A stretch of DNA of 28,093 nt, taken from IMG/VR virus record IMGVR_UViG_3300010151_000105, positions 1 to 28,093 of that record; one strand, 5' to 3'. The position numbers and the translations under genes are program-made. The DNA comes from a virus. The notes below the pieces were generated by a model. It made no database searches. It had not been told where the DNA came from and worked only from the letters and a program-made list of their open reading frames with translations. Of this stretch, positions 1,864-26,549 are shown piece after piece (within the stretch, counting starts at the first letter, position 1; every line of letters begins with the position of its first letter).

Positions 1864-2162
1864 TGGAAGAATGGCAAGAAAAACATAAAGAATATGAAGA
1901 AGATTTAGAACTTTACGGTACTGCAATGAATAATGCATATCATCTAATAACTAGAAAAAGAACTTTAGATGATATTTATTATGAGTTAGAGGATGGGAAT
2001 AAAATTACTTTTCCTTTACCATTTAATCCAATGGAAGAAGATGGTAGAACACCTGATATGATTGATATTCTTATAGAGTATTTTACATCAACTGAAGAAT
2101 ATGAAAAGTGCTCAGAACTAGTAAAGATTAAAGAAAAATGTCAGAAAAGTTCAAAAACATAG
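1863..2162 (+). CDS. Small acidic protein upstream of large terminase
   Basis: 99 residues, starting at the ATG of a TAATG overlap and ending 25 bases inside the large terminase gene. The protein is acidic and tyrosine-rich (N-terminus MEEWQEKHKEYEEDLELYG), with a probable long first helix, a short beta-like segment (YYELEDGNKITFPLPFNP) and a C-terminal helix (YEKCSELVKIKEK). I recognise no family. Being locked between the small-subunit candidate and the large terminase suggests a packaging-related accessory, but that is context only. Confidence 0.65.
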   Translation: MEEWQEKHKEYEEDLELYGTAMNNAYHLITRKRTLDDIYYELEDGNKITFPLPFNPMEEDGRTPDMIDILIEYFTSTEEYEKCSELVKIKEKCQKSSKT

Positions 2163-4108
2163 ATAGGATAAGGCCTGCGGCCAAATTCTTTGAAGAACAT
2201 GGTTATTATACAGATGCTTTACCTAATACTAAAAATTATTATGATTTTTGGGATGAAGAAGCTAAAAGGTGTATGTATGGATACGAAATAGATGAATTAT
2301 ATGTTACAGGATTTCATTACTTTTATTTAAATTATTGTCCTATTGATAGAGCGGTAGATGAGGTATTACCAGATGGTACAATTCAATCTAAACGTGAAAG
2401 AACCTTTCCTGCTTTTTATGATGGAGATTGGGAATACTTTCAAGAAATAGATAAAGCTAGATCAGAGAATAGGCATATGATTGTGCTTAAAGCTAGGCGT
2501 AAAGGATACTCTTATAAAGCAGGATCTATGTTAGCTCGTAATTATTTCTTTGTTAAAAATTCAAAAAACTTTGTGTTTGCAGGACAAAAAGAATATTTAA
2601 TTGGAGATGGACTTTTATCTAAAGCGTGGGAGTTTTTATCATTTATAGATGATAATACAGCATGGGCTCAACCTAGATTAAGGGACAGAGAAATGAGTAA
2701 AATGTCTGGATATAAAAAGAAAGTTAATGGTATTGAAATAGAAATGGGTATGAAATCTCAGATAATGGGGGTATCTTTAAAGGATGCTCCAGACAAAGTA
2801 AGGGGAAAGGCAGGTGAATTAGTTTTCTTTGAAGAGGCAGGATCTTTTCCAGGATTATTAAAAGCATGGGAGGTAACAATGCCTACTATGAGACAAGGGG
2901 CAAAGACATTAGGTATGATGATAGCGTTTGGTACAGGTGGTACAGAAGGTGCTGATTTTGAAGCTATGGAAGAAATATTTTATAATCCAGCTGCATATGA
3001 TTGTATGGATTATGAAAATGAATGGGATGCTGGAGCTTTAGGAACAAGATGCGGATATTTTATTCCAATACAAAAGAATTTAGATGGGTTTATAGATGGT
3101 AATGGTAACTCACAAGCGGAAGAAGCAATAGAATATGAAATAGAAATGAGGGAAAAGAAGAAAGGTGCTGCAGATGCAAAATCATTAGATCAATACATCG
3201 CAGAACACCCATTCTCCCCTCAAGAAGCTACTTTACAAATTACATCTAATTTATTTGATGTAGCATCTTTACAAGAACATTATAATAACCTGAAAGCCAA
3301 TAACTTACATACTAAAGGTACTCCAGGTAGCTTATATTATAAAAAAGAACAAGTAGAATTTAAACCTGATTATGATTTAAGACCTGTTTTAAAATTTCCA
3401 CATAGGAAAGATGATAATAATACTGGATGTGTAGTTATATATGAATCACCTTATAGAAATAAGGAAAATATTACACCGCATAATTTATATGTAATATGTC
3501 ATGACCCTTACGGACAGAATCAATCAGCTGACTCATCATCATTAGGTGCTGCATATGTATTAAAGAGGCCTAATAATTTATCACAGCCAGATGATATAAT
3601 TGTAGCATCTTATGTAGGTAGACCTGCAACTCAAGATGATTATAATCGTAATCTTTTTATGTTAGCAGATTATTATAACGCTAAGATAGGATTTGAGAAT
3701 GATCGTGGAGAGATAATAGCTTACGCAAAAAGATATAGAAAGTTGCATAAATTGCAACCAGAATTTGAAATGTTAGACAAGAAAGAATTGCAGTCTAGAC
3801 GTGTTAGAAGGACATATGGTATGCATATGACAGAAGCAAGGAAACAACAAGGTGAGATATATATAAGGGATTGGTTAAATTCATTGAGAGGAGTAGACGT
3901 AGATGGAAAAAAATTACTAAATTTGCAAAAGATCTATGACCCAGCATTAATACAAGAATTAACTAAATTCAATCATAAAGGAAACTTTGATAGAGTTATG
4001 GCGTTAATGATCGGTATGTATCATACTAGAGAATTATATAATGCTGAGGTAACAGATTTATATCAAGATAGAGCTCTTGATGAATTTTTTGATAGACAAA
4101 TATTTTAA
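2138..4108 (+). CDS. terL: Terminase large subunit (ATPase/nuclease)
   Basis: The 656-residue DNA-packaging motor, with an N-terminal ATPase and C-terminal RNase H-like nuclease. The adenine/Walker A region is at about 114-126 (MIVLKARRKGYSY). Residues 222-235 (RGKAGELVFFEEAG) hold the conserved Arg-Gly and the Walker B strand with catalytic E232/E233. The coupling motif is AFGTGGT at about 263-269. The nuclease acidic residues are likely D456 (in ICHDPYG), E520/D522 (in GFENDRG) and D618 (in GNFDRVMALM). The motor docks on the portal, translocates DNA using ATP and cuts it at head-full or specific sites. The P-loop is atypical: ARRKGYS in place of the usual RxxGKS/T. Length is normal. The start overlaps the previous gene by 25 bases, and the portal begins two bases after the stop. 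Confidence 0.93.
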   Translation: MSEKFKNIDRIRPAAKFFEEHGYYTDALPNTKNYYDFWDEEAKRCMYGYEIDELYVTGFHYFYLNYCPIDRAVDEVLPDGTIQSKRERTFPAFYDGDWEYFQEIDKARSENRHMIVLKARRKGYSYKAGSMLARNYFFVKNSKNFVFAGQKEYLIGDGLLSKAWEFLSFIDDNTAWAQPRLRDREMSKMSGYKKKVNGIEIEMGMKSQIMGVSLKDAPDKVRGKAGELVFFEEAGSFPGLLKAWEVTMPTMRQGAKTLGMMIAFGTGGTEGADFEAMEEIFYNPAAYDCMDYENEWDAGALGTRCGYFIPIQKNLDGFIDGNGNSQAEEAIEYEIEMREKKKGAADAKSLDQYIAEHPFSPQEATLQITSNLFDVASLQEHYNNLKANNLHTKGTPGSLYYKKEQVEFKPDYDLRPVLKFPHRKDDNNTGCVVIYESPYRNKENITPHNLYVICHDPYGQNQSADSSSLGAAYVLKRPNNLSQPDDIIVASYVGRPATQDDYNRNLFMLADYYNAKIGFENDRGEIIAYAKRYRKLHKLQPEFEMLDKKELQSRRVRRTYGMHMTEARKQQGEIYIRDWLNSLRGVDVDGKKLLNLQKIYDPALIQELTKFNHKGNFDRVMALMIGMYHTRELYNAEVTDLYQDRALDEFFDRQIF

Positions 4109-11118: not shown

Positions 11119-12231
11119 ATGGCAGACGAAAACAAGTTAAAATTAGAAGATATCACATTTGATGATTTCATAGGTGATGGTCTCACGGCTGAATTAAAAG
11201 AAGAAGCAAGTAACGAAGCAGTCGTAGAAACAAAAAAAGAAGCTACAGAGGAAGATATTAAAGATGCTTCCAAAGAACTCGATACTGATGTAGATGATAA
11301 AGTTGAAGAGGAAAAAGAAGTAGTAAGTAAAAAGAAAATCAAAACTCAGCCTAGAATTGAAGAGGAGGAAGAAGAGGAAGAGATTGATGACACTGTAGTA
11401 AATGAAGTTCTTTCTCAATTAGGATATGAATTTCCTGATGAAGAGTTTGAAGATGATACTGACGGGTTGGTAAAGTTAGCTAAAGCTGTTGGAACTAAAA
11501 TGGCGGAAGATCAACTTGATGGATTATTTCAAGCTTATCCAGAGATTCAAAAACATTTAGATTATGTTTTAAATGGAGGTAAATCTGAAGATTGGATGAA
11601 GTCAAGTATTCAAATAACTGACTTTGAAAATATACAAGTTAATGAGAATGATCTAAGAACACAAAAAGCTGTTCTTGGAGAATACTTTAAACTTAAAGGA
11701 CATGATGCGGAATTTATAAATGAATTATTAGATGATTATATAGAATCTGATAAGTTATATAATAAAGCGGTAAAAGCAAAGACAGCCCTTAATCAGTATT
11801 ATAGTAAAGAAAGAGATACGAGATTAGAACAACAGAAACGTGAACAAATAGCTAACCAACAAAAACAAAGAGAGTTTTGGGATGAAATTAATGAGACTAT
11901 TCAAACTTCTAAAGATTTTGCTGGTATTACAGTTCAAGAAAAAGATAAAAACAAATTCTTTGATTATTTAAGTAAACCTGATAGTAATGGTATAACTGAG
12001 AGGGAGAAATCTCATAAAGAGTCCTCTCAAGATGTTAAACTAGCTATAGATTATTTAATGTTCAAAGGATTTAATTTGAAAGATATTATCGCAGCTAAAG
12101 CAAAGACGTCTAACGCTAAGAGTTTGCGAAAAAAGATTAAATCAAGTAGTTCAGTGAAAGGTACTCCTCGCCCTAAAAGGAAAGGAGGATTTGATATTGA
12201 AGCACTAGATTTAAACCTGGGTAACCTATAA
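11119..12231 (+). CDS. Probable capsid scaffold/assembly protein
   Basis: A 370-residue protein immediately upstream of the major capsid gene, the standard scaffold position. The N-terminal 130 residues are very acidic and probably disordered (a run of eight Glu at about 80-90), the middle is helical with a likely coiled coil (about 190-275, rich in Q, K, E and R), and the tail is strongly basic (SLRKKIKSSSSVKGTPRPKRKGG, about 334-356). A helical body with a basic C-terminal tail is the common scaffold design, where the tail contacts the capsid protein. Scaffolds fill the procapsid and are expelled or cleaved. I cannot see a protease domain. An internal head or cargo protein is the alternative. 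A candidate promoter precedes it. Confidence 0.6.
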   Translation: MADENKLKLEDITFDDFIGDGLTAELKEEASNEAVVETKKEATEEDIKDASKELDTDVDDKVEEEKEVVSKKKIKTQPRIEEEEEEEEIDDTVVNEVLSQLGYEFPDEEFEDDTDGLVKLAKAVGTKMAEDQLDGLFQAYPEIQKHLDYVLNGGKSEDWMKSSIQITDFENIQVNENDLRTQKAVLGEYFKLKGHDAEFINELLDDYIESDKLYNKAVKAKTALNQYYSKERDTRLEQQKREQIANQQKQREFWDEINETIQTSKDFAGITVQEKDKNKFFDYLSKPDSNGITEREKSHKESSQDVKLAIDYLMFKGFNLKDIIAAKAKTSNAKSLRKKIKSSSSVKGTPRPKRKGGFDIEALDLNLGNL

Positions 12232-12237
12232 AGCGCG

Positions 12238-12264
12238 AAAGGAGCTTGGTTATCATAACCCTTT
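12238..12264 (+). promoter_or_regulatory. Small hairpin in the major capsid leader
   Basis: The 48-base gap before the capsid gene can fold as AAAGG (12238-12242) with CCTTT (12260-12264), closing over GTTA (12249-12252) and TAAC (12256-12259) with a three-base loop and a one-sided bulge. The remaining leader to the ATG at 12280 is A-rich and unstructured. No T-tract follows, so it looks more like a leader or RNA-stability element than a terminator. Confidence 0.3.
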
Positions 12265-12279
12265 AAATTTAAAATAAAA

Positions 12280-13716
12280 ATGCAAGTATTAAAAACTTAT
12301 TACAATGATGCGCAGATGACTGATACTAATTCATTAGTTAATGCGTTATTGGAAAAGCCAGCAGAGCTTTCTCCAATCATCACACATCTTGCAGGGAAAG
12401 ACGATAGAAAATTTCCGTTAACTATGTTAACAGAAGGGGTTGGTAATTCTAAGTCCATTGATAGATGGGAATATGAATACCGAGTTAAATCTCATACTAT
12501 CAACACTCGTCCTCTCGCTGCTGCAAATGCTGGTTCTAACCTAGGTTTAGGTGGAGCAACATTTACTTTAACATTTCCAGATAAATGGTTCATATTCCCT
12601 TATACATTGATTTCACAATCAGGTGTACAAGCAAGAATTATGGCTGAGCCTAAGGCAGCTGGAAGTAACTATGTCTACACGCTGCAATTAGTAGATCCAG
12701 ATTCAACGGCTTCATTACCTGCGGGTGATCACGCTTTAGGTGCAATTTGGGGTCAATTATATGCTAACGTTGGGGTTGACTTCTCTAGAGGTAATGCTTC
12801 TAATTGGAGTACACCAGGTATGGTAAGAAACAAAATTGGTACTGTTAGAAAATCTTATCACTTCGCAGGAAATGCTAAGAACTACGTTGCTGAGTTTGCT
12901 TTACCTACTAAAGGTGGAAAAACTACCAAAATGTGGATGGATTATGAAGAGTACTTACACATGTTATCTTTTAAAGAAGAATGTGAATTACTTTATTGGT
13001 ACGGAGAAAAAACTTATGGTAATGATGGTATAGTAAACATGACTGATGAGAATGGGCAACCAGTAATCACAGGTCCTGGATTATTACAACAAATTATCAA
13101 TAAGGACACTTACTCTACTTTAACTGAAACTAAATTAACAAATCTTATCGGAGATTTATTTTACGGTATGACTGATGCAAGTAATAAAAGCATTACATTG
13201 TTTACTGGTATTGGTGGAGCAAGAGAATTTGACAATGCGTTAAAGAACTACCAAGGCGGTTTCCCTACTGGTGCTGGTACACCTTGGACAGTAAATGCAG
13301 ATAGTAAATTTATTACTGGATCAGGACGTTCTTTAGGAATGACTGGTTACTTTACAAGTTATGACCATATTGATGGACATACAGTAAATGTGGTTAAACA
13401 TCCAATGTTTGATCATGGTCCTGTAGCTCAAGCAAGATCTAAGCATCCTGTGACTGGCTACTCTTTAGAATCATATAGAATGGTATTTGTTGACACATCT
13501 AATTATGATGGTCAAGCGAATATTCAAATGATTAACAAGAAAGGACGTGAGTACTTAAGATGGGCAGTTGCGGGTTCTGTTGTTCCAACAGGCTTCGGAT
13601 CAAGTGATCTACGAGCTTCTGACATTGATGGTGCAAGTGTACATATGTTAAAAACAGCAGGTATCGTTCTTAAAAGATTTGATACTTCTATTGATTTAGA
13701 ATGTGTTAAAGCATAG
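12280..13716 (+). CDS. Major capsid protein
   Basis: A 478-residue protein after the scaffold candidate. It has the size and composition of an HK97-fold capsid protein from large Bacteroidota podophages: few cysteines, many Gly/Thr/Asn, and an N-terminal arm (MQVLKTYYNDAQMTDTNSLV) leading into a segment where the E-loop would lie (WEYEYRVKSHTINTRPL, about 68-84). The C-terminal part (MVFVDTSNYDGQANIQM, then REYLRWAVAGSVVP, about 406-445) resembles the A-domain strands and the W-x-V-x-G loop seen in such proteins. It should form the icosahedral shell. The gene is isolated, with a structured leader upstream and strong hairpins downstream, as expected for a highly expressed cistron. Identity rests on position, size and remembered sequence character, not an alignment. 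Confidence 0.8.
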   Translation: MQVLKTYYNDAQMTDTNSLVNALLEKPAELSPIITHLAGKDDRKFPLTMLTEGVGNSKSIDRWEYEYRVKSHTINTRPLAAANAGSNLGLGGATFTLTFPDKWFIFPYTLISQSGVQARIMAEPKAAGSNYVYTLQLVDPDSTASLPAGDHALGAIWGQLYANVGVDFSRGNASNWSTPGMVRNKIGTVRKSYHFAGNAKNYVAEFALPTKGGKTTKMWMDYEEYLHMLSFKEECELLYWYGEKTYGNDGIVNMTDENGQPVITGPGLLQQIINKDTYSTLTETKLTNLIGDLFYGMTDASNKSITLFTGIGGAREFDNALKNYQGGFPTGAGTPWTVNADSKFITGSGRSLGMTGYFTSYDHIDGHTVNVVKHPMFDHGPVAQARSKHPVTGYSLESYRMVFVDTSNYDGQANIQMINKKGREYLRWAVAGSVVPTGFGSSDLRASDIDGASVHMLKTAGIVLKRFDTSIDLECVKA

Positions 13717-13761
13717 TATACGTTTAGATGAACGGCGTTAACTAACGTTTTCGTAGTCTAT
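13713..13761 (+). other. Imperfect extended inverted repeat after the capsid gene
   Basis: ATAGTATACG (13713-13722) pairs with CGTAGTCTAT (13752-13761) at eight of ten positions; inside it AACG can pair with CGTT, or CGTTA (13736-13740) with TAACG (13743-13747). It begins at the capsid stop codon and is followed by a T-run (13770-13775). It could be the first part of a double terminator or protect the 3' end of the capsid mRNA. Confidence 0.4.
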
Positions 13762-13776
13762 ATATCTAGTTTTTTG

Positions 13777-13812
13777 TAGGATTGAGGGGGTGTAAAAACC
13801 CCCACTATCCTA
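13777..13812 (+). terminator. Strong hairpin, probable terminator after major capsid gene
   Basis: TAGGAT (13777-13782) pairs with ATCCTA (13807-13812) and the inner GGGGGT (13786-13791) with ACCCCC (13798-13803) around a six-base loop (GTAAAA); a three-base internal loop separates the two stems. The GC-rich core is very unusual in this AT-rich DNA. Only a modest T-rich stretch (TATTTATATA) follows, so it may be a partial terminator or 3'-end stabiliser that raises capsid mRNA over downstream genes. Confidence 0.65.
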
Positions 13813-13896
13813 TTTATATAAAGAAAGTAAGGCCTAGTATTCTTATAAGCCTGAAAGGAAATTTAACTTAATTAATAATTTTAAAAGAACATAAAA

Positions 13897-14709
13897 ATGG
13901 GAAAAAGAAAAATAGTAATTCTGCGTAAAGAACCTACAGGGTTTTTACCTAAGTCAGTTAGAGCAGAATCAAGAATGTATATCAGTAGTGTCTATATGAA
14001 TAGACAACCTTTAAAAGGAGTAACTGCTGAAGAATCAAAGAAATACTTAAATGGTATTTTAGATGTAGGTCCGGAACATGTAGATTGGCCTAAACATGAA
14101 AAATTATATTGGACAAACATGTCTATTATGGTACCATTTGGAGGAGTAGAATTAAATATTTCTACCTCAACAGATGGAGAGCCTGAAGATATTGAAGACT
14201 GGTTAAGATACAAATGGATATTAAAACATCCTCATGTAGGTTTAAATAAAGAAGAAATGATTGGTGATATTAAAAAGAGATTTTTTATTCAAGATACTCA
14301 AAGAGATTTAAGACAAGCGAATAATAAAATTCAACTTTTAAAAGATGCTGATAAAGAGTTTATAAAATTATCAGATAATAAATCAGATATGAGAAGAGTT
14401 TATCGTTTACTAGCAAATGATAATCCTGATAGGTTAACTGATTTAGAAATTGAGAATAGACTTTATTCTTTAAAAAGCGATAAACCTAGTAGATTCATTA
14501 GGATCTCTCAAGATAAGCATTTAAAAATGAAATCGGAAATTGAAGAAATGATAAGTGCGGAAATTTTAAGAAAGATAGGAAATCAAATTATTTATCAAGA
14601 TGATATTCTTGGAGATACATTACGAGATACAGTTATCCATCTTAGTGATAAAAAGAACTCAGGGAAATTAACAACTTTGAGGGCTAAATTAAAAGAAGCA
14701 TATATATAG
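13897..14709 (+). CDS. Unrecognised head/connector-region protein, 270 aa
   Basis: Lies between the major capsid gene and the connector-like gene, so a head-related role is likely, but I recognise no family. The N-terminal third looks beta-rich, with a basic start (MGKRKIVILRKEP) and segments such as LYWTNMSIMVPFGGVELNIS (about 70-89). The remainder (about 100-270) is charged and helical, including a long segment around 135-180. Stop TAG (14707-14709) shares its G with the GTG start of the next gene. The 5' coding region contains a nine-base-pair hairpin. Possible roles are head completion, an internal head protein or packaging accessory. Confidence 0.7.
   Translation: MGKRKIVILRKEPTGFLPKSVRAESRMYISSVYMNRQPLKGVTAEESKKYLNGILDVGPEHVDWPKHEKLYWTNMSIMVPFGGVELNISTSTDGEPEDIEDWLRYKWILKHPHVGLNKEEMIGDIKKRFFIQDTQRDLRQANNKIQLLKDADKEFIKLSDNKSDMRRVYRLLANDNPDRLTDLEIENRLYSLKSDKPSRFIRISQDKHLKMKSEIEEMISAEILRKIGNQIIYQDDILGDTLRDTVIHLSDKKNSGKLTTLRAKLKEAYI
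13925..13948 (+). other. Start-proximal hairpin, +29 from ATG 13897
   Basis: GTAAA-G-AACC (13925-13934) pairs with GGTTTTTAC (13940-13948) through nine base pairs with one bulged G and a five-base loop (TACAG). It lies inside the coding sequence, about 29 bases after the start codon. It may influence initiation on this SD-less message, or be incidental. Confidence 0.4.
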
Positions 14710-15869
14710 TGAATATATCAGAAATGCATATATCAGTACAGCATGGGGTTGACAAGATCAACTCCATGCACTCTGATATTCTTCTTCCAGAAGAAATAGA
14801 TCTAGAATTAAATAAAAATATTTTAAGATTTATTAATACTAGATTTAATCCTAGAGGTAATAGATATCAAAAAGGTTTTGAGATGTCTCAAAAACGTATT
14901 GATGATTTAAGATCTTTAATTGTAGAACAAAGTATGCCTACTATATATAAAGGGCATGTGTTTGATAATACATGGATAGATGCATCATTTTTACCAATTG
15001 ATTATTTATATTTAATTAATATGAAATCATTAGTAAGGCAAGATAAATGTAAAAAACTCTGTTGGGCTGAGGCAACAGCTCAAATGAGACCAATAGAGTT
15101 TATACTAGATGTTGATATACTTCATCATACTCTACCAAATAGTTTTACTTCACATTTTGGAGCATTTATTGGTTATGAACCAGCAAATAGTACAGGATCA
15201 CCGCCGCTAACTCCTATAACAACTCCATACGCAGGAATATATGATACAGCATCAGCCCTTAAATCATTTCTTTTATATTCGGGCAATTGGTTGGTGCCAG
15301 GAATGTCTATTATGAACCTTAACACTGGTATTAATAAAGTTGTTGTTACTTTTCCAATAGGATTTAATCTGCAGGTCAATTTTTTAGGAATACTATGGAA
15401 TAATGGAACAGGCTCAACTGCAATGGATGCTAGTGAGACAGATGATGCAGGTGGTAATGCAACTCCTAGCTCTTTAGTTTTTGATTCAAATGCATATTGG
15501 GCTGCAAAAAGAACTCCTTGTGATGATCAAGATTTTACTCAGACAGTAGGAATTAATGAGTTTGCTCAACATGATGATATATATAAGCTATTACAAGACC
15601 CTTTTAATAAAACAAAATATAAATCTCCTTTATTTACAATGAAGGAAAATTACGTTGAAATCTATACTGATGACACATTTATAGTACAAGACATTAAAAT
15701 TACGTACTTAAGAAAACCTGAAACAGTAGATAACGGCAATAGTATAAACTGCGACCTACCAGATCATACACATCAAGAAATTGTGGATATGACAGTAAGT
15801 ACAATTTTAGAGGAACTATCAGATCCTCGATATCAAAGTAGTAATATAGAGATATTAAAATCTGAATAG
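14709..15869 (+). CDS. Head-tail connector / virion stabilisation-like protein (GTG start)
   Basis: 386 residues, starting at GTG 14709 in a TAGTG overlap. The N-terminal region (MNISEMHISVQHGVDKINS, then LLPEEIDLELNKNILRFI, then FEMSQKRIDDLRSLI) is a helical bundle that I associate with the connector/adaptor proteins next to the capsid gene in Bacteroidota podophages, related in role to P22 gp4-type stabilisation proteins. A beta-rich central insertion follows (about 95-300, Gly/Thr/Ser-rich near 235-255), and the end returns to a conserved-looking strand and helix (DIKITYLRKPETVD, then DHTHQEIVDMTVSTILEEL). Such proteins form a ring below the portal that closes the head and receives the tail. 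A long RNA hairpin lies in the first 70 bases. Confidence 0.6.
   Translation: MNISEMHISVQHGVDKINSMHSDILLPEEIDLELNKNILRFINTRFNPRGNRYQKGFEMSQKRIDDLRSLIVEQSMPTIYKGHVFDNTWIDASFLPIDYLYLINMKSLVRQDKCKKLCWAEATAQMRPIEFILDVDILHHTLPNSFTSHFGAFIGYEPANSTGSPPLTPITTPYAGIYDTASALKSFLLYSGNWLVPGMSIMNLNTGINKVVVTFPIGFNLQVNFLGILWNNGTGSTAMDASETDDAGGNATPSSLVFDSNAYWAAKRTPCDDQDFTQTVGINEFAQHDDIYKLLQDPFNKTKYKSPLFTMKENYVEIYTDDTFIVQDIKITYLRKPETVDNGNSINCDLPDHTHQEIVDMTVSTILEELSDPRYQSSNIEILKSE
14730..14779 (+). other. Long start-proximal hairpin in the connector gene
   Basis: The outer stem ATATCAG (14730-14736) pairs with CTGATAT (14773-14779). The inner 12-base stem GCATGGGGTTGA (14741-14752) pairs with TCAACTCCATGC (14758-14769), with one G-U wobble and a five-base loop CAAGA. 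A small internal loop separates them, giving 19 base pairs in 50 bases, beginning 21 bases after the GTG start that is coupled to the previous stop. It is one of the most stable structures I can find by eye here. It may tune re-initiation or be an mRNA processing site. Confidence 0.6.
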
Positions 15870-15903: not shown

Positions 15904-16926
15904 ATGGCAAAATTAACATTTATAGATGGCGCAGCCTCAGCAACAACTACTTATGCAATGAACATAAACTCAGCGTTTGCAGGAGGTACCGTCGGAAATA
16001 TAGGAATGTGGGTAACTGAACCTGGTACTACAACTGTAACGGGAGACCACTTAGACGGAATTTCTCCTGAATTCTTTTTAGACAATGCTGGTGGGCAACT
16101 TGATTACACCATTTGTCCAGATGTATTTCAAATTACTCAACAAACTACAAGCGGTTATCCGTATGCTTCTCCTTTAATTGAGAAAAGTAGAGTAAAAAGA
16201 GTTACTCATACTACGTATTTAGCTAGTGCAAAAGCAACTACTGGAAACAGAACTATTAATAACGCTTCAGCATTAAATAGTGCTACTTGGGGTATTAAAA
16301 TTGTGAAGTTATCTGGATACAGTGATTACAATGAATTTTTAAACCCAACAGGAGAATATGACGACAGAGTTGGAGCAGTTAGAAGTTATGAGTTTGTATC
16401 TGACGCTACTGGTACTGTAGCTGAAATCGCTACTGGTTTAGTAGCTGCAATTAATGCAGATTCTGGAGCTTGGGTAACTGCAGCTAATGCAGGTGCTGGT
16501 GAGATTCAAATTACAGCTAAAGATAATGGTACTGCTTTTAAAGTTATTGATACTAGTACTACAACTATGACGTATGCGTCTGGTACTTTAGTAGGTAACT
16601 TTGGATTTACTGAAGGTGTAGGTAATGGATTTCAAGCGGTAGAAGCTGAAAAGAAATCTTTACACCACAGAGGTGCTCACCACAATAGAATGTACTTCGC
16701 TGATTCAGTTGAGCAATTTGCATCTGCATCTAAAACTTATGACATTTTCACAATTGAATGTGACGGTGGAGTAAGACAAGATGCTACAAACGCAAAAGAC
16801 GATTTAATTATTGAGCTTTGGGTTCCATCAGGATATACAGATGGTGGAGGTATTATGAATGACTTCTGGGGTCCAGCGACTTCAACTACAACAGCAGGAG
16901 ATACTATGGTATTATACCAAAAGTAG
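15904..16926 (+). CDS. Virion structural protein, 340 aa (possible tail or decoration protein)
   Basis: A Gly/Thr/Ala-rich, beta-looking protein following the connector gene after a 34-base A-rich gap. Residues about 160-215 (TGTVAEIATGLVAAINAD, then GEIQITAKDNGTAFKV) form the 'iA..L..aIna...vtA....i.iTAk..G' segment that recurs in phage tail tube, sheath and surface proteins. The C-terminal part (KTYDIFTIECDGGVRQDA, then DDLIIELWVPSG) looks like further strands. It is probably an abundant virion protein; a tail tube, ring or capsid decoration protein are all possible. No tape-measure gene is visible here, so tail type cannot be settled. A terminator-like hairpin follows 20 bases after the stop. 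Confidence 0.55.
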   Translation: MAKLTFIDGAASATTTYAMNINSAFAGGTVGNIGMWVTEPGTTTVTGDHLDGISPEFFLDNAGGQLDYTICPDVFQITQQTTSGYPYASPLIEKSRVKRVTHTTYLASAKATTGNRTINNASALNSATWGIKIVKLSGYSDYNEFLNPTGEYDDRVGAVRSYEFVSDATGTVAEIATGLVAAINADSGAWVTAANAGAGEIQITAKDNGTAFKVIDTSTTTMTYASGTLVGNFGFTEGVGNGFQAVEAEKKSLHHRGAHHNRMYFADSVEQFASASKTYDIFTIECDGGVRQDATNAKDDLIIELWVPSGYTDGGGIMNDFWGPATSTTTAGDTMVLYQK

Positions 16927-17003: not shown

Positions 17004-17549
17004 ATGGCTTTAACGGCAACTATAGCAGCAGATTGTAAAACAATGACGATTGCGGGAGGTGCGAATTATTCAAATGCAGAAATTGATATATATTGGAATG
17101 ATGTAACGATTACATCTATACCAAGAGAACTAACTAACCCTTTTAACCCAATTCTTAATTTAACAGCTGCAGGAGATCTCGTTCTATCTCTTAGTAATTT
17201 CATAGATGATACAGGAGCAGCTGCTACCACATATACTCATTTTAATGGGATATTTAAATTTGTAATAACAACTAATTCTGGAGTATTTGAAATAGGTGCA
17301 GTAGGTATGTGTGATATTAATTGTTGTTTAGCTGCGAAAACAAAAGACTTATTAAAATGCAAGTGTACAGAATGTAAAGAATGTGCATCTATACTTGCAG
17401 ATATAGCAAAGATATTTTTATTACTTAATGGCGCTAAAACAAATGTAGCAGGATGCGTTCAAACTACTACTTTATATGAAAAATCTATAGACGAGTATTT
17501 GAAAGCTAAAGAGATGTGTGGCACTAAAAATTGTAATTGCGACTGTTAA
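17004..17549 (+). CDS. Cys-rich small virion-associated protein, 181 aa
   Basis: The N-terminal 100 residues are a Thr/Asn-rich beta region (MALTATIAADCKTMTIAGG, then GIFKFVITTNSGVFEIGAV). The C-terminal 80 residues hold nearly all the cysteines: C103, C107-C108, C119-x-C121-x2-C124-x2-C127, C151 and C172, C177, C179, C181. Between them a short hydrophobic helix (ILADIAKIFLLLNGA, about 130-144) looks like a packing helix rather than a membrane span. The pattern could bind metal or form disulfides. It sits 13 bases upstream of the giant adhesin gene, whose product is also Cys-rich, so it may be a partner or assembly factor. I recall similar small proteins in other Bacteroidota phages but know no function. 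Confidence 0.65.
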   Translation: MALTATIAADCKTMTIAGGANYSNAEIDIYWNDVTITSIPRELTNPFNPILNLTAAGDLVLSLSNFIDDTGAAATTYTHFNGIFKFVITTNSGVFEIGAVGMCDINCCLAAKTKDLLKCKCTECKECASILADIAKIFLLLNGAKTNVAGCVQTTTLYEKSIDEYLKAKEMCGTKNCNCDC

Positions 17550-17562: not shown

Positions 17563-20500
17563 ATGGCTTGGAATCCTTCCCTACCTCCGTCGCAAACAAC
17601 GACGGATCGTTTTCACTCAGACTTTGATGGTTTAAGGTTTGCATTAGTTAAACTAGATAATTTTAGTTTACATATGAAGAAACCTACATGGACTTGTGGT
17701 GTTCAGAATACTGGATGGGCAGCAGGATTTAGATGGGGTACTCATAGTTCATTTAGAGGATATGAGGAAGCAAGTACCGGCGCTTTATTATCTGGCTCTC
17801 TTGGGTCGTCTTGCGTATTGGGATCTCCACTTGGGTGGAGTTCACAAATATCGTATACCTCTAGCTCATGTTTACCTTTTATTTATGGGTCAACTACCTT
17901 TTTAGCAGAGCAATCTTGTTGTGAGCCAGAATTTGGTTATACTTCAATGATAGGTTGTGAATCTGGATGGGAAGTAGGATTGGCAAATAATTTGGGGTTC
18001 AATTGTCCGTCAACTAACCCAGTAGGTTGTGGTGGATATTCGTATAATGGGGCCCACTGCTGTCATTGTTATGAATGTAGAAGAGGGTCAAACTTAACAA
18101 CATGTTCGCCTAGTTCTTTTAATCCCCCAGGATCAACACCTGTGATGTATTCCACCCATTCAACACAAAATATACATGGTATAAGTAATCTCGCTGCTGG
18201 AATTTGGGGTTGGGGTAATGCGGGTGCTTGTGGTGGTGGTTCTACTGTAGTTGCTGAAGGTAAAGGTGCTTATAATGATACTATATGGATGCAATATACT
18301 GGGGGTCCATTATTATGGGGATCTCCTATACAACCTGATGGTAACGATAATAAGAGTTATTATGGTATAGGAATGACTATGCAAGATATTACTACTGATT
18401 GTAGTTATGTTTATAAAGAACATCCAACAAATACAACTCCAATAGGAATAAATGGCCCAGACAATGGGAGTGGAGGATGTGATGTAGGAAATGTTATATG
18501 GCCAGATCCTGATCTTGATGCACAGGGAAAAAATAGGGCAGAGAATTTATCTTATTATGCTATTATATTATTTCCTACAATCCCAAATCAAACGTACGGT
18601 AGTGTCTTATCTGATGAATATAAATTTAAGCTTCATATGGATATGCGTAGTGAGGCTTGGAAAAAAATAATAGGCCCAGCATGGCCAGTATCTTATTATG
18701 GATCGAGCGCATACTCAAGTTCTGGTGGTAATGCATATACCTTTAGTTCGTGGAACGGATCTAACAGTACTTCGTTCTGTACAAATGAGACTGGAGAATT
18801 AGGATGGTATTTAGCTCAATCTAATACAGGTATGATGCATCACATGACAGGTACAGGAGGCGTGGTTGAAGACAGGGCGTATGGAGGTATTATGGATGGT
18901 GAATTTATAACTCTTGATGATCCGTGGTGGTCGGGTGACGGTACTAGTTATAATAATCCTTGGGGTGTTGAATTATTAAGCGCCCTTCAAAAACATATGA
19001 TTAGAGAATCTTGTTATCAGAGGCTTGATACATCATTACAACCATCTAATAAGAATGTTACTATACTAATCACTAAAACACCAGCCGCTGCTCCAAGTTA
19101 TAATAAATTACAGGCTGAATTAGCCATGTTTGCCGCAGGTGAAACAAACGAACAACTTAGTTTATTTACTGATAATCCTTATTTTAATCTACATGTAACA
19201 TCAGGAGGAGGTGCCGGCCAAACAATAGTTTTTAGAGATGTTGCAACAGGTATACAAGATAATAGATATGGCGGAGAAAATGCACCGCCATATGAGGAAA
19301 TGGGCAGCTTTCAGTCGGGTTTAGGTAGTGATGATCAAACTACCCCAATACGATCAGAATCACAAGGTATGACAATTTCTGCTGAATTAGTTAAAGATTG
19401 GGAATCTTATATATTTGGTTCTTCTGGTTTTAGTTGGTCTGATGTTAAGGTTCATACTTTAAGAACTGTAGATTGGGATTCATACATGGCAAATACTGGA
19501 GGCGGTGGTTCAACCTCTTCTTTTCCAAACCTAATGAGCCCCACAGGAGTTATACAAGGAAATTTTTATGAACTTGATGCAAGAGTATATTTAGGACTTC
19601 CTGATGGTGCATTTGAAAATAGAATGGTTAAACATTTATATGGAGATGCAACAGATGATGCTGGATGTGTAGGGGATGTGCACGGCAAAAAACCTATAAT
19701 GGGATATGGAGGACATGGTAATGTTATATCTAGTAGTAATTTAAGTACTATTTCTGCAAATGGTGGTTGGGTTGATAATCAATATGCTTATCATTTTATT
19801 GGACTAAAAGCAGTTTTTACGCCAACAACAGTTGCTTATTTTAACTTCCCAAACGGCGATAGTCATCCAGAAGTTCTTTGTTCTCCAACAAATTTATTCC
19901 AATATAATACTTCAATTCCAAATACTAATTGCACATATGTAGATCATTCTACTGGTAATTATATATGGCCAGATACTACTAATAGTAATTGGACTTTTGA
20001 ATCTGCTTATGGAGTAGGTCCTCAATATACTAATCATTCTGTTAATTCCAAAAATCAATGGGCTATTTGTACAGGTAATGGTATGGTTTATAATACAACA
20101 CCAGACACCTCCCAGCAACCTATTTTAACTGCACAAGTTGCCGATTGTCCTGTATGTGATACGGGGAATGGAGTTGTAAATGTAGTACTAACTAATATCG
20201 ATGCAAGTGGAGTAGAAATTGATGATATATCCTTTTCTCCTGCTGCCACAACCAGTCCTATCACTCCTACTGGAAATTTGGGGACAATTTATGCATCAAC
20301 TACTTGGAGTTTTTTTATTGGTGTAGGTACTTATACTGTAACTGTCGTAACTGTAAATCATGGTACTTATACGTCCTCCTTTACCATGCCTAATTGTGAG
20401 CAAATTTCTTTTAATCTTGATTCAGTTGTCGTAGGTGCTGCCGTTACATGTACTTCTCCTGGGGGGTTCCGAGGTAAATTTGATGCTTCAAATTTAACAG

Positions 20501-23500
20501 GAACAACTATATCTAATTGTGGTGGTTTACAATGGACAGTCTGGGAATGGGATGTAACAAATAGTACTTGGATATTTCATTCTGCAGGCCATCCATTTAA
20601 ATCTTCTGTAATTAATTTTGGTATTCCTGGTTCTGGTGTACCAATTTTTGGAGCTAACCACATTAATAATCCTGGGGCAACTGTAAATAATAAAGAATTC
20701 CTTATGCCAGGTATAAGTGGTGGTACATATAGAGTCACTTTAACTAATAGGTGGTATTTAGTAGATGCAAATGAAGTCTGGGCAGATTTTGATTTAGTAG
20801 GATGTTATGACCATGTTGATATAGTAATGCCTTCAACTGTTCTTAATGCAACAGTAACTCATACAAGTCACCCAGTATGTAATAGTAGTGACAGAGAAGA
20901 GAATTTTACAAATTGTTATAATACTACTACTAATACTGGATATATAACCAATTGCTCTGGTCTTACTCCTTCTAATATGGGTGAATTTGATATTGACATC
21001 ACTGGAATAGCGTATGGGCTTTTTACAATAGATCATATTAATCCTTGTGGCCTTACATATACATCATCAGTTGCTATATATGGTGGGACAGCTACTTATG
21101 GATCTTCATCAGGTAATACATTTCAGGCTGGTTGCAACCATCCTTCCGGTCCAATCAGTCCTGGAACACACATAATAAATATGACTGATGCAGCTGGATG
21201 TACTACTTCAGTTTCTATAACTATTAACGAACCTGGTCCAATGATAAAAAATGCGAGCACTACCCAAACTCATGCTCTATGTTCTGGTGGAAACGGGTCT
21301 TTAAGTGGATTAGTAGTAGATACGACGATGTCATGCGCCAGTATGCAATATGCTGTAACACTTGGCTCAGTAGGAAACTCTACTTGGACCAATACTGATG
21401 TTTGGGATCTTACTCCTGATATAATACAAGGATGGCAATCTAGTTCAACTTTTAATTTACCTGCTGGAACATATCGTATATGGGCAAGAAATTCATGTGG
21501 ATGTTTATTTAGAGATGTTCAAATGACTATTGAGGGAGGAGGCACTTTAGCAAGTACTATAGCAGTTACAAACCCAGGATGTTCTGGAGGTATAGCAAGT
21601 ATAACTGTTTCAGCAAGTGGAGGTACTGGTCCTTATACATATGATTGGACAACAGTAACTACAGGAACTTCTGGAGTTGCTGATCCACTTTTTGTAGCAC
21701 CAGCAACTAGTTCAAACTCATTTACACAAGCTGTACCAGGAGGTACTTATGATTATGAATGCCTTGTGCAAGATGCTAATGGCTGCACACAAACTCTTAC
21801 AGCTTCAACAATTGCAGGAGCTCCTTTAACTCTAACAGCAGTAGTATCTTCAATAAGTTGTGCAGGTGGAAGTAATGGAGCTATAGATACAACAGTAACT
21901 GGAGGTATAGGTCCTTATACTTACGCTTGGTCTGGCAGTTCGTCAGCGACTAGTGCAGATTTAACTAGTTTAGGTGTAGGTACATACACTGTATTGGTAA
22001 CAGACAGTACGCCAGGAACTCCTTGTACTACTACAGGTTCATGGACAATAGCATCTACAGGAGGATCAGAGGCATGGGTAGACATTAATCAATATGCTTG
22101 GTCTGGATATAATACTCCTTATGGAGACTCTATTACACAATCAACAGCTAATGATAATACATATGGAATGTATGGAGGACCTACATGTCCAGGAGATAGT
22201 GATGGAACAATAAGATTAATGCTTGATGATTCTACTCCAGTAGTAGGAGCATCTTTTCCATTTGAAGTATGGTTAAGTAATGATGGTGGAGCAACTTATT
22301 ATCAAGCCACAGATAATTCAGGAGTTAATTTAAGTGTCCTAACTACAGATTTAGTTACTACAGGAACAGGTATAGTAGCTTCAACAAGTGCAGTTTATGA
22401 TCCACAAACAGCTTCAGGTACAGTTGATTATTTTGAAATAACTGGAAATTCAGATAAATGGAATCCAGGAGGAGGTGCTGTAGTATTACCATTTACTGAA
22501 AATAGTACTTGGCATGTTAAATTAATAGAAACTGGAGTTTCAGCATGTTCATATGAATTTAGTACTACAATATTACCTTCAGACTATAGAAATGTATATA
22601 ATCAACTAGCTACTACACAACCAACATGTTGCGGGTGTAGTTCTTATGGAGCTTCTATTGGTACTAATGTATGTAATGGTGAAATAGATAATACACCTAT
22701 TAGAGGAACATATGAAGATCATACAAATACTAATTATACATATTTATGGACATATGCTACTTTAGCATCTACTTGTAGTGTACCAGGGCATAACAATACA
22801 AATACACAATGGAGTAATATAACTACACAAGATTTAACAGCTGAATGGCCAGGAATCTATACTGTAGTAGTAACTGATAGTTGTGGAGGAACTGATACAG
22901 ACACAGAAACACTTAATGATCCTATAGTTTATATAGATGATATTACTTGGGTTCCACCTCAATGTGCGGGGTGTTGTACAGGAACTCTTACTATTACAGC
23001 ACATGGAGGTAATGGAACTTTAGAAGTATCATTAAATAATGGTATCTCATTTACGCCTATAACTAGTCCTCATACATTTACAAATATGTGTGGAGGTATA
23101 AATAGTATATGGGTTAAGGATGGGTCGTCATGTGTAGTAGAGTATTTTGCAGATCCAAATGATGTGAATATATTATCTTCTTACGATGATAATTGTTTTG
23201 CAAATGCAAACACTTCAAGTATAATAAGTACTTCAGGAAGTTGGATTCCTACATATAATAACCCTAATTTAGGAGTTGCTACAGCGAATGCATTTACAGA
23301 ATCTTCTTCAACTAAAATAGAATTAATACCTGTATCTGATTTTTCAGTTGCTAATGCGTGTATAATTAGTCATAATATTATACCGGGAGATACTAATGGA
23401 GAAATAAGACTTACAATAACAGGTGGTACTGCTCCTTATGAAATAGGTATTGTTGCTCAAGCAGGCCCTTTCTATACACCTAGTATTCCTATGAATCCTT

Positions 23501-25236
23501 GTTATGGTATAGGACCTCTAACAACTACTTCTCCATGTTTATATACTGGAGATCCTATTAGTAATTATGGCCCAAGTTTAGATACAGCAACAGTTATGAC
23601 TTATGCTCCATGGGGTGGAGGCGCAAGTAATTCGGTGTCTTCATCGACAGCTATTACTACAAGTTTATTAGATATAAGATTCTCTAATGTTAGTGTTTCT
23701 AGAGATTTAGGATATGGAGCCCTCGGTGCAGAATATATATTCTATGTTAGAGATGCTCATGGATGTTATCAAACAACACATGTAGGAATGGATAATGGGA
23801 TATTTGGAGTTATATCTATATATGGAGCAATGAATTGTGATTGTGTTTGTCCTATTGGATATGTTTATGACGAAGATTCAGAAGAGTGTGTAACTAGTGT
23901 TGCTTCACCAGCTCAACCTAATACAACAACTGGATACTGGACATTAGTTAAAAACCTATATACAGCACAAATTACACCATCAAAATGGCAGCAGAATGGG
24001 TGTAGTTTATATGGAGTATGGACTGGAGCTGCGGTTGATTATACTCAAAGTATTGTTATAAATACTAATGACTTGCCTTTATTAAAAGATATAATTACTA
24101 ATGCAAATACAGGCCCTAATCATATATATAGGTCTACTTCTGGAATTACCCAAATAGGAGTAGATTTAGGTATATGGAATACTTTGGCAACTACAAGTTA
24201 TATTAATGATAGGGTAAAAGATATAGCTATATGGTTAGATCAAGGATCCCCAATAACTCCTCCAGCTATACCTGTAGGAGAATGGATAGGATGTATAACA
24301 GAAATTAATTTTCAATTTAATACACCAGCAGTTATAGCATTATGTTCTGACTCTAAGATGAGAATGAAAGTTGATGGAATTGTTTGGATTGATATGGCGG
24401 CAGATGAAAATACACTTACTACATATACATCTAATTATCAGTATTTCAATCTATTCCCAATATCATTGCCAGGAGGTTTACATACTATCTCTTTTGAAGT
24501 TTATAGTACTACGTCCGATGCAATGATGGCATTTGAAGTATATATAAATCAAGATGCTGCAACAAATAATTATTTTATTGGAGATATTCTTGGGGGGTCG
24601 TTCAGTGCAGCGAACCTTCAATCGTGGATACTACAAGATGCAAATAATGAAGATTTAAGTAGTAAATCTTGGGATACAAAAGAAATACAATTAGGTACTA
24701 CGTATGGGTATTCTTGTACAGAAGTAACAGATGCGGTAAGTTATTCTTCAGGAGCTTTATTTTGTATACAAGATGCAACAGCTCCTTGTGAAGTTCCATT
24801 AGATTGTGGGTATTGTTTAGATAGTAACGGCGTGCCTCAACCTCAATGGACTAAAAAAGGACCTTGTGTAAACGCAAACGACGGAGGAGTCCCTACTCCA
24901 GCATTATTAGGAAATGTTTGGGTAACAGATTATTCTGAATTATCTGATTTAGTAGAATGTCCTGGAGCATTAGCTAATACAGCTTATGCTAGAATAATGG
25001 GAGCCTTAGCAACTAGAGCTTTAGATATAAGACAAATATGGATGACTATAATCATTAGACATTTATTACACAATCTAAATGCTTGTATGACATTATCAGA
25101 TATACAAGACTTGTTTACAGGCTTTTTAGATGATGTATGTCCAACATGTGACACAGATGTAGATTTAACTCCAGCACAAATGGAAGCATTAACTTCTATT
25201 TTCACACTTAATACGAACTCAAATTTTGACTTTTAA
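17563..25236 (+). CDS. Giant SprB-module adhesin / receptor-binding virion protein
   Basis: A 2557-residue protein. Residues 1 to about 850 are Gly/Ser/Asn/Trp-rich with many cysteines and no recognised domain. From about 862 to 2050 there are about nine Ig-like modules, each opening with a Cys-Gly/Asp-rich strand (near C862, C1106, C1240, C1340, C1433, C1542, C1689, C1801, C1933). The best, at about 1340-1515, show the SprB-repeat pattern: GGTGPYTYDW, GGIGPYTYAWSG, then VGTYTVLVTDS or 'DANGCTQT'. An EGF-like Cys cluster follows (CDCVCPIGYVYDEDSEEC, from C2092), then a PA14-like beta region (about 2240-2335: CSDSKMRMKVDGIVW, LPGGLHTISFEVY). It is probably the long host-binding fibre or spike. 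SprB-type modules are known from Bacteroidota gliding and surface adhesins. I see no signal peptide, consistent with virion assembly in the cytoplasm. Confidence 0.72.
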   Translation: MAWNPSLPPSQTTTDRFHSDFDGLRFALVKLDNFSLHMKKPTWTCGVQNTGWAAGFRWGTHSSFRGYEEASTGALLSGSLGSSCVLGSPLGWSSQISYTSSSCLPFIYGSTTFLAEQSCCEPEFGYTSMIGCESGWEVGLANNLGFNCPSTNPVGCGGYSYNGAHCCHCYECRRGSNLTTCSPSSFNPPGSTPVMYSTHSTQNIHGISNLAAGIWGWGNAGACGGGSTVVAEGKGAYNDTIWMQYTGGPLLWGSPIQPDGNDNKSYYGIGMTMQDITTDCSYVYKEHPTNTTPIGINGPDNGSGGCDVGNVIWPDPDLDAQGKNRAENLSYYAIILFPTIPNQTYGSVLSDEYKFKLHMDMRSEAWKKIIGPAWPVSYYGSSAYSSSGGNAYTFSSWNGSNSTSFCTNETGELGWYLAQSNTGMMHHMTGTGGVVEDRAYGGIMDGEFITLDDPWWSGDGTSYNNPWGVELLSALQKHMIRESCYQRLDTSLQPSNKNVTILITKTPAAAPSYNKLQAELAMFAAGETNEQLSLFTDNPYFNLHVTSGGGAGQTIVFRDVATGIQDNRYGGENAPPYEEMGSFQSGLGSDDQTTPIRSESQGMTISAELVKDWESYIFGSSGFSWSDVKVHTLRTVDWDSYMANTGGGGSTSSFPNLMSPTGVIQGNFYELDARVYLGLPDGAFENRMVKHLYGDATDDAGCVGDVHGKKPIMGYGGHGNVISSSNLSTISANGGWVDNQYAYHFIGLKAVFTPTTVAYFNFPNGDSHPEVLCSPTNLFQYNTSIPNTNCTYVDHSTGNYIWPDTTNSNWTFESAYGVGPQYTNHSVNSKNQWAICTGNGMVYNTTPDTSQQPILTAQVADCPVCDTGNGVVNVVLTNIDASGVEIDDISFSPAATTSPITPTGNLGTIYASTTWSFFIGVGTYTVTVVTVNHGTYTSSFTMPNCEQISFNLDSVVVGAAVTCTSPGGFRGKFDASNLTGTTISNCGGLQWTVWEWDVTNSTWIFHSAGHPFKSSVINFGIPGSGVPIFGANHINNPGATVNNKEFLMPGISGGTYRVTLTNRWYLVDANEVWADFDLVGCYDHVDIVMPSTVLNATVTHTSHPVCNSSDREENFTNCYNTTTNTGYITNCSGLTPSNMGEFDIDITGIAYGLFTIDHINPCGLTYTSSVAIYGGTATYGSSSGNTFQAGCNHPSGPISPGTHIINMTDAAGCTTSVSITINEPGPMIKNASTTQTHALCSGGNGSLSGLVVDTTMSCASMQYAVTLGSVGNSTWTNTDVWDLTPDIIQGWQSSSTFNLPAGTYRIWARNSCGCLFRDVQMTIEGGGTLASTIAVTNPGCSGGIASITVSASGGTGPYTYDWTTVTTGTSGVADPLFVAPATSSNSFTQAVPGGTYDYECLVQDANGCTQTLTASTIAGAPLTLTAVVSSISCAGGSNGAIDTTVTGGIGPYTYAWSGSSSATSADLTSLGVGTYTVLVTDSTPGTPCTTTGSWTIASTGGSEAWVDINQYAWSGYNTPYGDSITQSTANDNTYGMYGGPTCPGDSDGTIRLMLDDSTPVVGASFPFEVWLSNDGGATYYQATDNSGVNLSVLTTDLVTTGTGIVASTSAVYDPQTASGTVDYFEITGNSDKWNPGGGAVVLPFTENSTWHVKLIETGVSACSYEFSTTILPSDYRNVYNQLATTQPTCCGCSSYGASIGTNVCNGEIDNTPIRGTYEDHTNTNYTYLWTYATLASTCSVPGHNNTNTQWSNITTQDLTAEWPGIYTVVVTDSCGGTDTDTETLNDPIVYIDDITWVPPQCAGCCTGTLTITAHGGNGTLEVSLNNGISFTPITSPHTFTNMCGGINSIWVKDGSSCVVEYFADPNDVNILSSYDDNCFANANTSSIISTSGSWIPTYNNPNLGVATANAFTESSSTKIELIPVSDFSVANACIISHNIIPGDTNGEIRLTITGGTAPYEIGIVAQAGPFYTPSIPMNPCYGIGPLTTTSPCLYTGDPISNYGPSLDTATVMTYAPWGGGASNSVSSSTAITTSLLDIRFSNVSVSRDLGYGALGAEYIFYVRDAHGCYQTTHVGMDNGIFGVISIYGAMNCDCVCPIGYVYDEDSEECVTSVASPAQPNTTTGYWTLVKNLYTAQITPSKWQQNGCSLYGVWTGAAVDYTQSIVINTNDLPLLKDIITNANTGPNHIYRSTSGITQIGVDLGIWNTLATTSYINDRVKDIAIWLDQGSPITPPAIPVGEWIGCITEINFQFNTPAVIALCSDSKMRMKVDGIVWIDMAADENTLTTYTSNYQYFNLFPISLPGGLHTISFEVYSTTSDAMMAFEVYINQDAATNNYFIGDILGGSFSAANLQSWILQDANNEDLSSKSWDTKEIQLGTTYGYSCTEVTDAVSYSSGALFCIQDATAPCEVPLDCGYCLDSNGVPQPQWTKKGPCVNANDGGVPTPALLGNVWVTDYSELSDLVECPGALANTAYARIMGALATRALDIRQIWMTIIIRHLLHNLNACMTLSDIQDLFTGFLDDVCPTCDTDVDLTPAQMEALTSIFTLNTNSNFDF
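17586..17606 (+). other. Start-proximal GC-rich hairpin, +24 in the adhesin gene
   Basis: TCCGTCG (17586-17592) pairs perfectly with CGACGGA (17600-17606) around a seven-base loop (CAAACAA). Five of seven pairs are G-C, notable in AT-rich DNA. It begins 23 bases after the start of the largest gene. Confidence 0.45.
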
Positions 25237-25247: not shown

Positions 25248-26549
25248 ATGGCTATAAAAGTAAATTCTTTAACAACTAAAAATATTTCAGTAGTATCTGA
25301 TGCTTCAAATGAATATTTATATATAACTAATGCATTATCTAGAACAGATAGTAAAATACCTTTAAATAATTTAATAACTACATTTGAATCTGTAGGTACT
25401 GGAAAAAGCTTAGTATCGACAGCTACATCTCTTAATAGACATGTTATAAAATCATTAGAGCAGGATGCTTCAGGGATTATAACAGTAGGAGCTGGAAGTT
25501 CAGTAATAACTGTTGGTATAGATCAAACACAGATAGATTTATCAAAATGTAAAAATACAACTACTCCTTTTTTATCGACTATTAATTTAACAACTAATGT
25601 AGGAGCAACTGTATTACCTACTGCAAATGGAGGAACTAATAAAAGCTCTGCTTATGTTGTTGGAGATATAGTTTATGCTTCAGCAACTGATACATTAGCT
25701 GGATTAGCAGATATAGCTACAGGAAATGCTTTAATCTCTGGCGGTATAGGAGTTGCTCCGTCGTGGGGTAAAATAGCTTTAGGTACACATGTTAGTGGAA
25801 CATTAAGTGTAGGTAATGGTGGAACTGGAGCAACTAGTCATACTTCAAAAGGTGTATTACTAGGTAATAATACAGGAGCTGTTACAACGACTAATGCAGG
25901 AGGAACTAACGGAACAGTATTAATTGGTAATGCTTCTGGTAGCCCACAATTTGGTGCTATTACATCTCCTGATAGTACAATAACATTTACAACTGGAGCT
26001 GGTGCTTTAGGATTATCTACAAAAATTACTACTTTAGAAAATGCTTCAGGAACAGCAGGATTAGTATGTGACAGTTCAGGAAATTTAATATCACAAGCTG
26101 ATGCTACTTTAGCTTATAAAAGACCTATAGTAAATGTAGCTTCTGGTACATATAATCCAACAGCAGCTCAATCAGGAAGTATATTTACATTAAACTTAGC
26201 AGGAGGTATAACAGTAACTTTACCAGCTGCGGCTGCAGGATTAACTTATGAATTTCATATAGGTACTACATTTAGTGGCACATTAACTATTAATGCGGCT
26301 AGTTCAGCAGATACTCTTCAAGGAGCTATTTATATGGGAACTGGACTAGTTAAAAATGATTCAGCTGATAATACAGATAATCATGGTTATGCTTCACCAG
26401 CTGCAGCAGATCATCAATATGTAGCTGATGCAGATACAAAAGGAAGATTACTTGGAACAAGATTAAAATACACTGCAATAACTGATGCTATTTGGTTAGT
26501 TGAAGGATTTGCAATAACTGACGGGGCGATTGCAACCCCTTGGACATAG
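25248..26549 (+). CDS. Tail-fibre-like protein, 433 aa
   Basis: A Gly/Thr/Ala-rich fibre. The N-terminal 100 residues (MAIKVNSLTTKNISVVSDAS) look like a virion-attachment domain. The middle repeats the 'NGGTG/NGGTN' motifs typical of phage fibre shafts (ANGGTNKSSAY at about 127-137, VGNGGTGATSHTSKGVLLGN at about 188-207, then GNASGSPQFGAI). The C-terminal domain (about 300-433) is a separate beta fold (GGITVTLPAAAAGLTYEFHI, SGTLTINAASSADTLQGAI) like the terminal domains of several marine and gut phage fibres or decoration proteins. It begins 11 bases after the giant adhesin, so the two are co-transcribed, and probably takes part in host attachment. A hairpin plus a candidate promoter follow the stop. 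Confidence 0.68.
   Translation: MAIKVNSLTTKNISVVSDASNEYLYITNALSRTDSKIPLNNLITTFESVGTGKSLVSTATSLNRHVIKSLEQDASGIITVGAGSSVITVGIDQTQIDLSKCKNTTTPFLSTINLTTNVGATVLPTANGGTNKSSAYVVGDIVYASATDTLAGLADIATGNALISGGIGVAPSWGKIALGTHVSGTLSVGNGGTGATSHTSKGVLLGNNTGAVTTTNAGGTNGTVLIGNASGSPQFGAITSPDSTITFTTGAGALGLSTKITTLENASGTAGLVCDSSGNLISQADATLAYKRPIVNVASGTYNPTAAQSGSIFTLNLAGGITVTLPAAAAGLTYEFHIGTTFSGTLTINAASSADTLQGAIYMGTGLVKNDSADNTDNHGYASPAAADHQYVADADTKGRLLGTRLKYTAITDAIWLVEGFAITDGAIATPWT

Follow-up and report, generated by a model that had tools for sequence, protein, structure and literature searches.

A conserved gene slot of crAss-like phages encodes giant candidate virion adhesins with Bacteroidota-type repeats and a common C-terminal domain

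Introduction

Why would a phage genome encode a giant protein with repeats of a type used on the surface of Bacteroidota, and what would such a protein do? Host recognition by crAss-like phages outside the gut is, to our knowledge, largely unknown. Tandem BACON repeats have been described near the tail genes of crAss-like phages, and a host origin was proposed for at least some of these modules (PMC6949934). The locus studied here raises the same question for another repeat, SprB. It lies in the 28-kb virus record IMGVR_UViG_3300010151_000105, which was analyzed over its whole length and is referred to below as the window; coordinates are those of its plus strand unless another contig is named. 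Between positions 17563 and 25236, the window contains one unbroken frame of 2557 codons, which an initial annotation had read as a phage receptor-binding protein with SprB modules in its middle. We call its product the slot protein, after the constant place that its gene occupies.

Results

The source phage is crAss-like, as judged from the sequences of its terminase, portal, and capsid genes. The terminase large subunit (2138..4108) matched PHROG 6681 at 2e-136 and aligned over its whole length with those of human-gut crAss-like phages at about 40% identity. The major capsid protein (MCP; 12280..13716) matched PHROG 11589 at 1e-87 and shared 33% identity over 94% with crAss-like capsid proteins, and the portal matched a PHROG portal family at 4e-114. 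The window phage thus has the homologous terminase, portal, and capsid protein that mark Crassvirales. A 93-kb IMG/VR contig encodes an identical 2557-aa protein, together with proteins that look fiber-like by eye, an endolysin, virion-protein homologs, a 1691-aa virion protein (PHROG 15100 match and weak match to crAss-like records), and a 4432-aa ORF. The smaller proteins of this contig match virion families and, like the 1691-aa protein, are at most candidates for ring or muzzle tail proteins of the crAss001 kind; the gene content fits a crAss-like virion, the structure of which has been solved for crAss001 (PMC10172136). The 4432-aa ORF, at 58001-71298 of the IMG/VR contig of L005 (locus L089), probably encodes a crAss-like cargo protein. 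The window also contains a second fast-changing giant gene (6431-11029), encoding a 1532-aa protein with a peptidoglycan-binding domain that varies strongly in length and sequence among these phages (28-48% identity or less). The tail expected for such a crAss-like phage is short and non-contractile. A 340-aa protein of the window (15904-16926) has a weak tail-sheath profile match, at 6.5e-7 over 66 residues.

The slot protein (17563..25236) has homologs in further phages with 38-60% identity over the full length. A search of the whole protein against 50,697 phage records gave no match at all, and neither did an NCBIfam search. Its C-terminal half matched five IMG/VR contigs and had no relative in a genome collection of 84,980 species. 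The variable N-terminal part, residues 1-855 (17563..20127), shows 14-50% identity between phages, and no family was detected in it by searches of Pfam and the PDB, including a search of the PDB with an N-terminal profile. The N-terminus (MAWNPSLPPSQTTTDRFHSDF) is by eye without a hydrophobic stretch. No Por_Secre_tail or CHU_C hit, either of which would indicate a type IX secretion system (T9SS) sorting domain, was obtained at an E value of ≤1 in the window protein; in one of its relatives, CHU_C gave no better than 0.14.

A Pfam search, which the initial annotation had proposed as a check, identified SprB (PF13573) in the slot protein with an E value of 1.4e-14 (53.8 bits versus a cutoff of 28), and the match was present in all five aligned phages. 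Individually, two stretches were above the cutoff (21556-21663 and 21835-21939), and two further stretches were partial and below it (22948-23043 and 23386-23442). We cut the module region by eye into ten segments and compared their profiles pairwise. The core SprB module, residues 1419-1500 (21817..22062; Pfam stretch with 46.8 bits), whose best bacterial matches are Bacteroidota, was tied to four segments at E values of <1e-4. These are residues 1086-1224 (20818..21234; 6e-7), residues 1328-1418 (21544..21816; 8e-12), which hold the other Pfam stretch above the cutoff, residues 1681-1790 (22603..22932; 2e-9), and residues 1890-2085 (23230..23817; 6e-5), which include the partial stretch at 23386-23442. 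Three more segments were related to the core module more weakly (0.001-0.006), and two were without support. The mean score was 19.6 for module-module pairs versus 11.3 for module-control pairs. SprB modules thus lie in the middle of the protein, as initially annotated, but the number given there, about nine, appears too high: profile comparisons point to five clear modules, with eight as an upper estimate.

The regions flanking the modules fit their first description less well. Residues 1-800, described as part of a Cys-rich N-terminal third, contain 21 Cys (2.6%), which is no more than the whole protein (78 Cys, 3.1%); the Cys are concentrated at residues 101-200, where there are 11. Neither the EGF-like nor the PA14-like C-terminal region was recovered, as Pfam EGF and PA14 gave no hit at an E value of ≤1 in any of the five members. 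The segment taken for EGF-like, residues 2087-2112 (23821..23898), has a visible short CxCxC...C cluster at residues ∼2092-2109, with Cys kept in the five phages, and the segment taken for PA14-like, residues 2120-2360 (23920..24642), is conserved in the SprB-type proteins. AlphaFold, run on 1200-aa halves with five-sequence alignments, yielded unusable models (mean pLDDT of 36 and 28). The profile of the C-terminal half matched, at the SprB module, solved phage Ig-like domains with E values of 3-4e-4, namely, the decoration proteins 5lxk (3e-4) and 8zvi and the neck whiskers gp24 (9occ). These profile matches lend indirect support to an Ig fold of the SprB modules.

Iterated profiles were used to annotate about 100 related loci. 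On sufficiently long contigs, the gene order was MCP-270-386-340-181-slot-433, with as exceptions an occasional extra small ORF, a split slot, or a neighbor missed by the profile. Synteny in related contigs identifies a 181-aa Cys-rich protein (17004..17549) as the constant upstream neighbor and a 433-aa protein (25248..26549) as the constant downstream neighbor; the latter is without family match and was judged fiber-like from repeats in its sequence only. An SprB-type protein occupies the slot in eight contigs besides the window. It measures 2250-2744 aa in the window phage and four others, and L205, L206 (near-identical), L209, and L210 are also of the SprB type with the same neighbors. Ten further phages have at this position either a single protein or a pair, measuring 316-2838 aa (some are truncated where the contig stops) and built of another repeat, GCTDPxAxNYNPxATxDDGSC (CTDP/DDGSC, or CTDP type). 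The split slots, in L101 (at 1156 and 3421) and L105 (at 6354 and 5031), consist of two adjacent genes of 753 and 438/439 aa. In Bacteroidota, the CTDP repeat was found in 5 of 17 sampled genomes and in 9 of 9 genomes of one order; its carriers include one protein with a T9SS sorting domain and Omp28-family proteins, in which the repeat comes after an apparent lipoprotein signal. The repeat is not confined to phages of Bacteroidota, since it has further matches in marine cyanophages: in S-CAM4 and ACG-2014j, CTDP/DDGSC-type repeats hit features whose annotation is virion structural protein or OmpA/MotB. In the terminase phylogeny, phages of the SprB type occur in two places, a single clade being rejected (p-AU of 0.01), and the slot may have changed type twice, by two gains or by a gain and a loss.

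The two body types share a C-terminal domain. We built a profile from the C-terminal ∼110 residues of the SprB-type proteins and searched it against 1330 ORFs of the loci. Among nonmembers, it matched best the C-terminal end of the slot protein of L099 (0.0012), followed by a 102-aa gene that comes immediately after the slot gene of L098 (0.02). Once these hits were added, the slot proteins of L101, L105, L103, L097, L100, and L102 came next (1e-9 to 0.003), and the remaining ORFs scored 0.23 and worse. In L101 and L105, the domain sits in the second gene of the split slot. When the C-terminal domains of the two body types were aligned by hhalign, the E value was 1.2e-5 and the score was 34.6, whereas none of 200 column shuffles scored above 24.1; this value is post hoc, since an insert was cut out of the alignment beforehand, which does not apply to the first-round profile search. 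Together, these searches indicate that a conserved helical CxxC domain of ∼75 residues (residues 2455-2530; 24925..25152) is common to SprB and CTDP slot proteins. The 181-aa upstream neighbor, the C-terminus of which is also Cys-rich, looked by eye like a homolog of this domain, which hhalign did not support (P of 0.51). In L098, the domain forms a separate 102-aa gene (6773-7081, minus strand) directly after the gene of the 2838-aa slot protein (7094-15610, minus strand).

We then located the change within the slot by comparing the window phage with its nearest relative. Their terminases are 94% identical and their MCPs 95% identical, whereas identity between their slot proteins is 50% in residues 1-860, 39% in residues 861-1320, 81% in the SprB pair, about 70% in residues 1501-2440, and 85% in the C-terminal 117 residues. 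The SprB half is the better conserved one and is colinear across the five phages. Host-range evolution by module shuffling had been considered plausible in the initial annotation; that the SprB modules are steady and colinear argues against it. It is whole bodies that have been replaced in the slot, with the C-terminal domain retained.

To trace the SprB modules, we compared them with bacterial genomes. Among the best 80 genome loci matching the module, 79 were from Bacteroidota, with identity of up to 58%, and one was from a metagenome-assembled genome (MAG) labeled Deltaproteobacteria. In the order that includes Mesonia, 47 of 60 genomes had SprB, compared with none of 14 control genomes. 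SprB was found in 2 of 16 genomes of another order, one of them the MAG itself; because only 1 of 15 order-mates of the MAG had a match, and a weak one, its SprB probably reflects misbinning. In a tree of 150 modules, a check that the initial annotation had proposed, phage copies branched among host copies, but with 82 columns the tree was poorly resolved and most of its forks were open. Grouping the five orthologous SprB modules as one clade gave a p-AU of 0.075. The description of the modules as host-type, in a phage protein whose gene lies in a structural, fiber-like cluster, is nevertheless borne out by the genome matches, and the modules likely came from hosts. Beyond the crAss-like group, SprB-like modules are found in many other IMG/VR contigs (viral loci L195-L271), some of which exceed 200 kb. 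A terminase of the window kind was found in 7 of 39 tested IMG/VR contigs with SprB-like modules.

Discussion

We propose that the slot protein is a virion adhesin anchored by its C-terminus, with a stalk of host-type modules and a body that has been replaced in some lineages, and we give this reading, drawn from sequence comparisons, a probability of roughly 0.55. The product of the slot ORF would sit on the surface of the crAss-like virion and most likely serve as a host-binding appendage. As the C-terminal end is the one kept in both slot types, we take it to be where the protein attaches to the virion, most likely through the ∼75-residue helical CxxC domain. The stalk would consist of the SprB/Ig-like modules together with the conserved region that follows, and the variable N-terminal ∼1300 residues would point outward and contact the host. 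The stalk modules, of a type used in Bacteroidota surface proteins, were probably acquired from hosts, and related phages carrying the CTDP/DDGSC repeat in the same slot would have swapped whole bodies in some lineages while keeping the C-terminal domain. Large size with one variable and one conserved end would be as expected of an adhesin. We infer the orientation, the anchoring, and the direction of transfer, as well as virion location and receptor binding, the last two on the basis of the gene neighborhood, the modular architecture, the unequal conservation along the protein, and the example of BACON. No homology to the tail fibers of crAss001 was detectable in the slot protein. More tentatively, and at somewhat less than even odds, these phages may possess an adhesin cassette in which whole bodies of Bacteroidota repeats are exchanged between phage lineages on a common C-terminal socket.

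Other functions would account for part of the data. The slot protein could be a head fiber or a Hoc-like head decoration that sticks the virion to host surfaces or glycans without receptor choice. Its Ig-like domain is indeed related to those of Hoc and pb10, as PHROG 2973 ("Hoc-like head decoration") was matched at 1.9e-7 (best value of 6.4e-15; three of five members) and the PDB matches at the module, with 5lxk at 3e-4, include decoration proteins. The gene is also close to the capsid gene, and crAss001 has head fibers with Ig-like domains (PMC10136315). However, all these matches are limited to Ig-like modules, which are common to many kinds of proteins, 2557 aa is very large for a head fiber, and the next downstream genes are fiber-like, if by eye only; we consider this function possible but less likely. 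The initial annotation raised another role, in which the SprB modules mimic the SprB gliding adhesin layer of the host or dock to it through like-like contacts with the gliding machinery. This is a fair idea in light of the literature, since gliding-motility genes influence how flavobacterial phages adsorb, with SprB and RemA as possible receptors (PMC13288928, PMC7345892), and SprB modules are present. The protein nevertheless has two to about eight modules, whereas the host loci that were matched usually have at least 10, sister phages have CTDP repeats without SprB in the same slot, and there is no evidence of SprB-SprB contacts. Moreover, the SprB part is conserved, while host pressure would be expected to diversify a receptor contact. 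We regard such docking as highly improbable.

The direction of transfer can be questioned as well. The SprB modules could belong to an old phage lineage of Ig-like domains, with host SprB sharing its descent or hosts having taken modules from phages. At least 143 SprB-like stretches in other IMG/VR contigs, virus-only clusters in the module tree, and the profile matches to solved phage Ig-like domains speak for such a history. Against it, the core modules lie among host modules and not with the large virus-only cluster, the module matches only one record of the annotated phage collection, and the majority of genomes of one host order carry SprB, many of them with tens of copies. We rate a phage origin as quite unlikely. 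Host DNA or a chimeric assembly has a practically negligible chance of being the source of the ORF: SprB and CTDP repeats are a typical feature of Bacteroidota genomes, but a second IMG/VR contig carries the identical ORF, synteny extends to diverged contigs, and the C-terminal half is without relatives in the genome collection.

The preferred reading, a C-terminally anchored adhesin, has its closest precedent in the BACON protein of crAssphage (gp64) and related gut phages, which is likewise a large crAss-like protein near tail genes with Bacteroidota-type Ig-like modules (PMC6949934). The modules differ, being BACON there and SprB or CTDP in the slot proteins, which, unlike BACON proteins, combine a fixed slot, an exchangeable body, and a common C-terminal domain. 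Their conserved end is C-terminal, whereas the C-terminus is poorly conserved in cluster 1 BACON proteins (PMC6949934). With the SprB gliding adhesin of Flavobacterium and other SprB-repeat T9SS proteins, the slot protein shares the repeat (PF13573), but it is without a T9SS sorting domain and an apparent signal peptide, and it has few modules and other flanking domains. Hoc-like and T5 pb10-type decoration proteins and phage neck whiskers also have an Ig-like domain, with a sequence relation detectable at the module; they are small, and the relation covers the module only. Gut crAss-like phages have Ig-like domain adhesins, which we liken to the slot protein by description and which were tested for binding to mammalian epithelium (PMC13370021). 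We found no report of SprB repeats in phage proteins in the open-access full-text literature, although one may exist. Recruitment of Ig-like modules of the Bacteroidota surface by crAss-like phages is already known from BACON; the fixed slot, the exchangeable body, and the common C-terminal domain are new.

Our results extend the BACON precedent to two further repeat families of the Bacteroidota surface type, which appear to have been recruited and replaced as whole bodies. If the adhesin cassette exists, a phage would be able to switch its host-type surface arm in one step. At the slot, a likely host-binding protein can be searched for in a constant position, with the conserved domain as a candidate anchor, and this offers a route to the variable host-interaction genes of uncultured phages.
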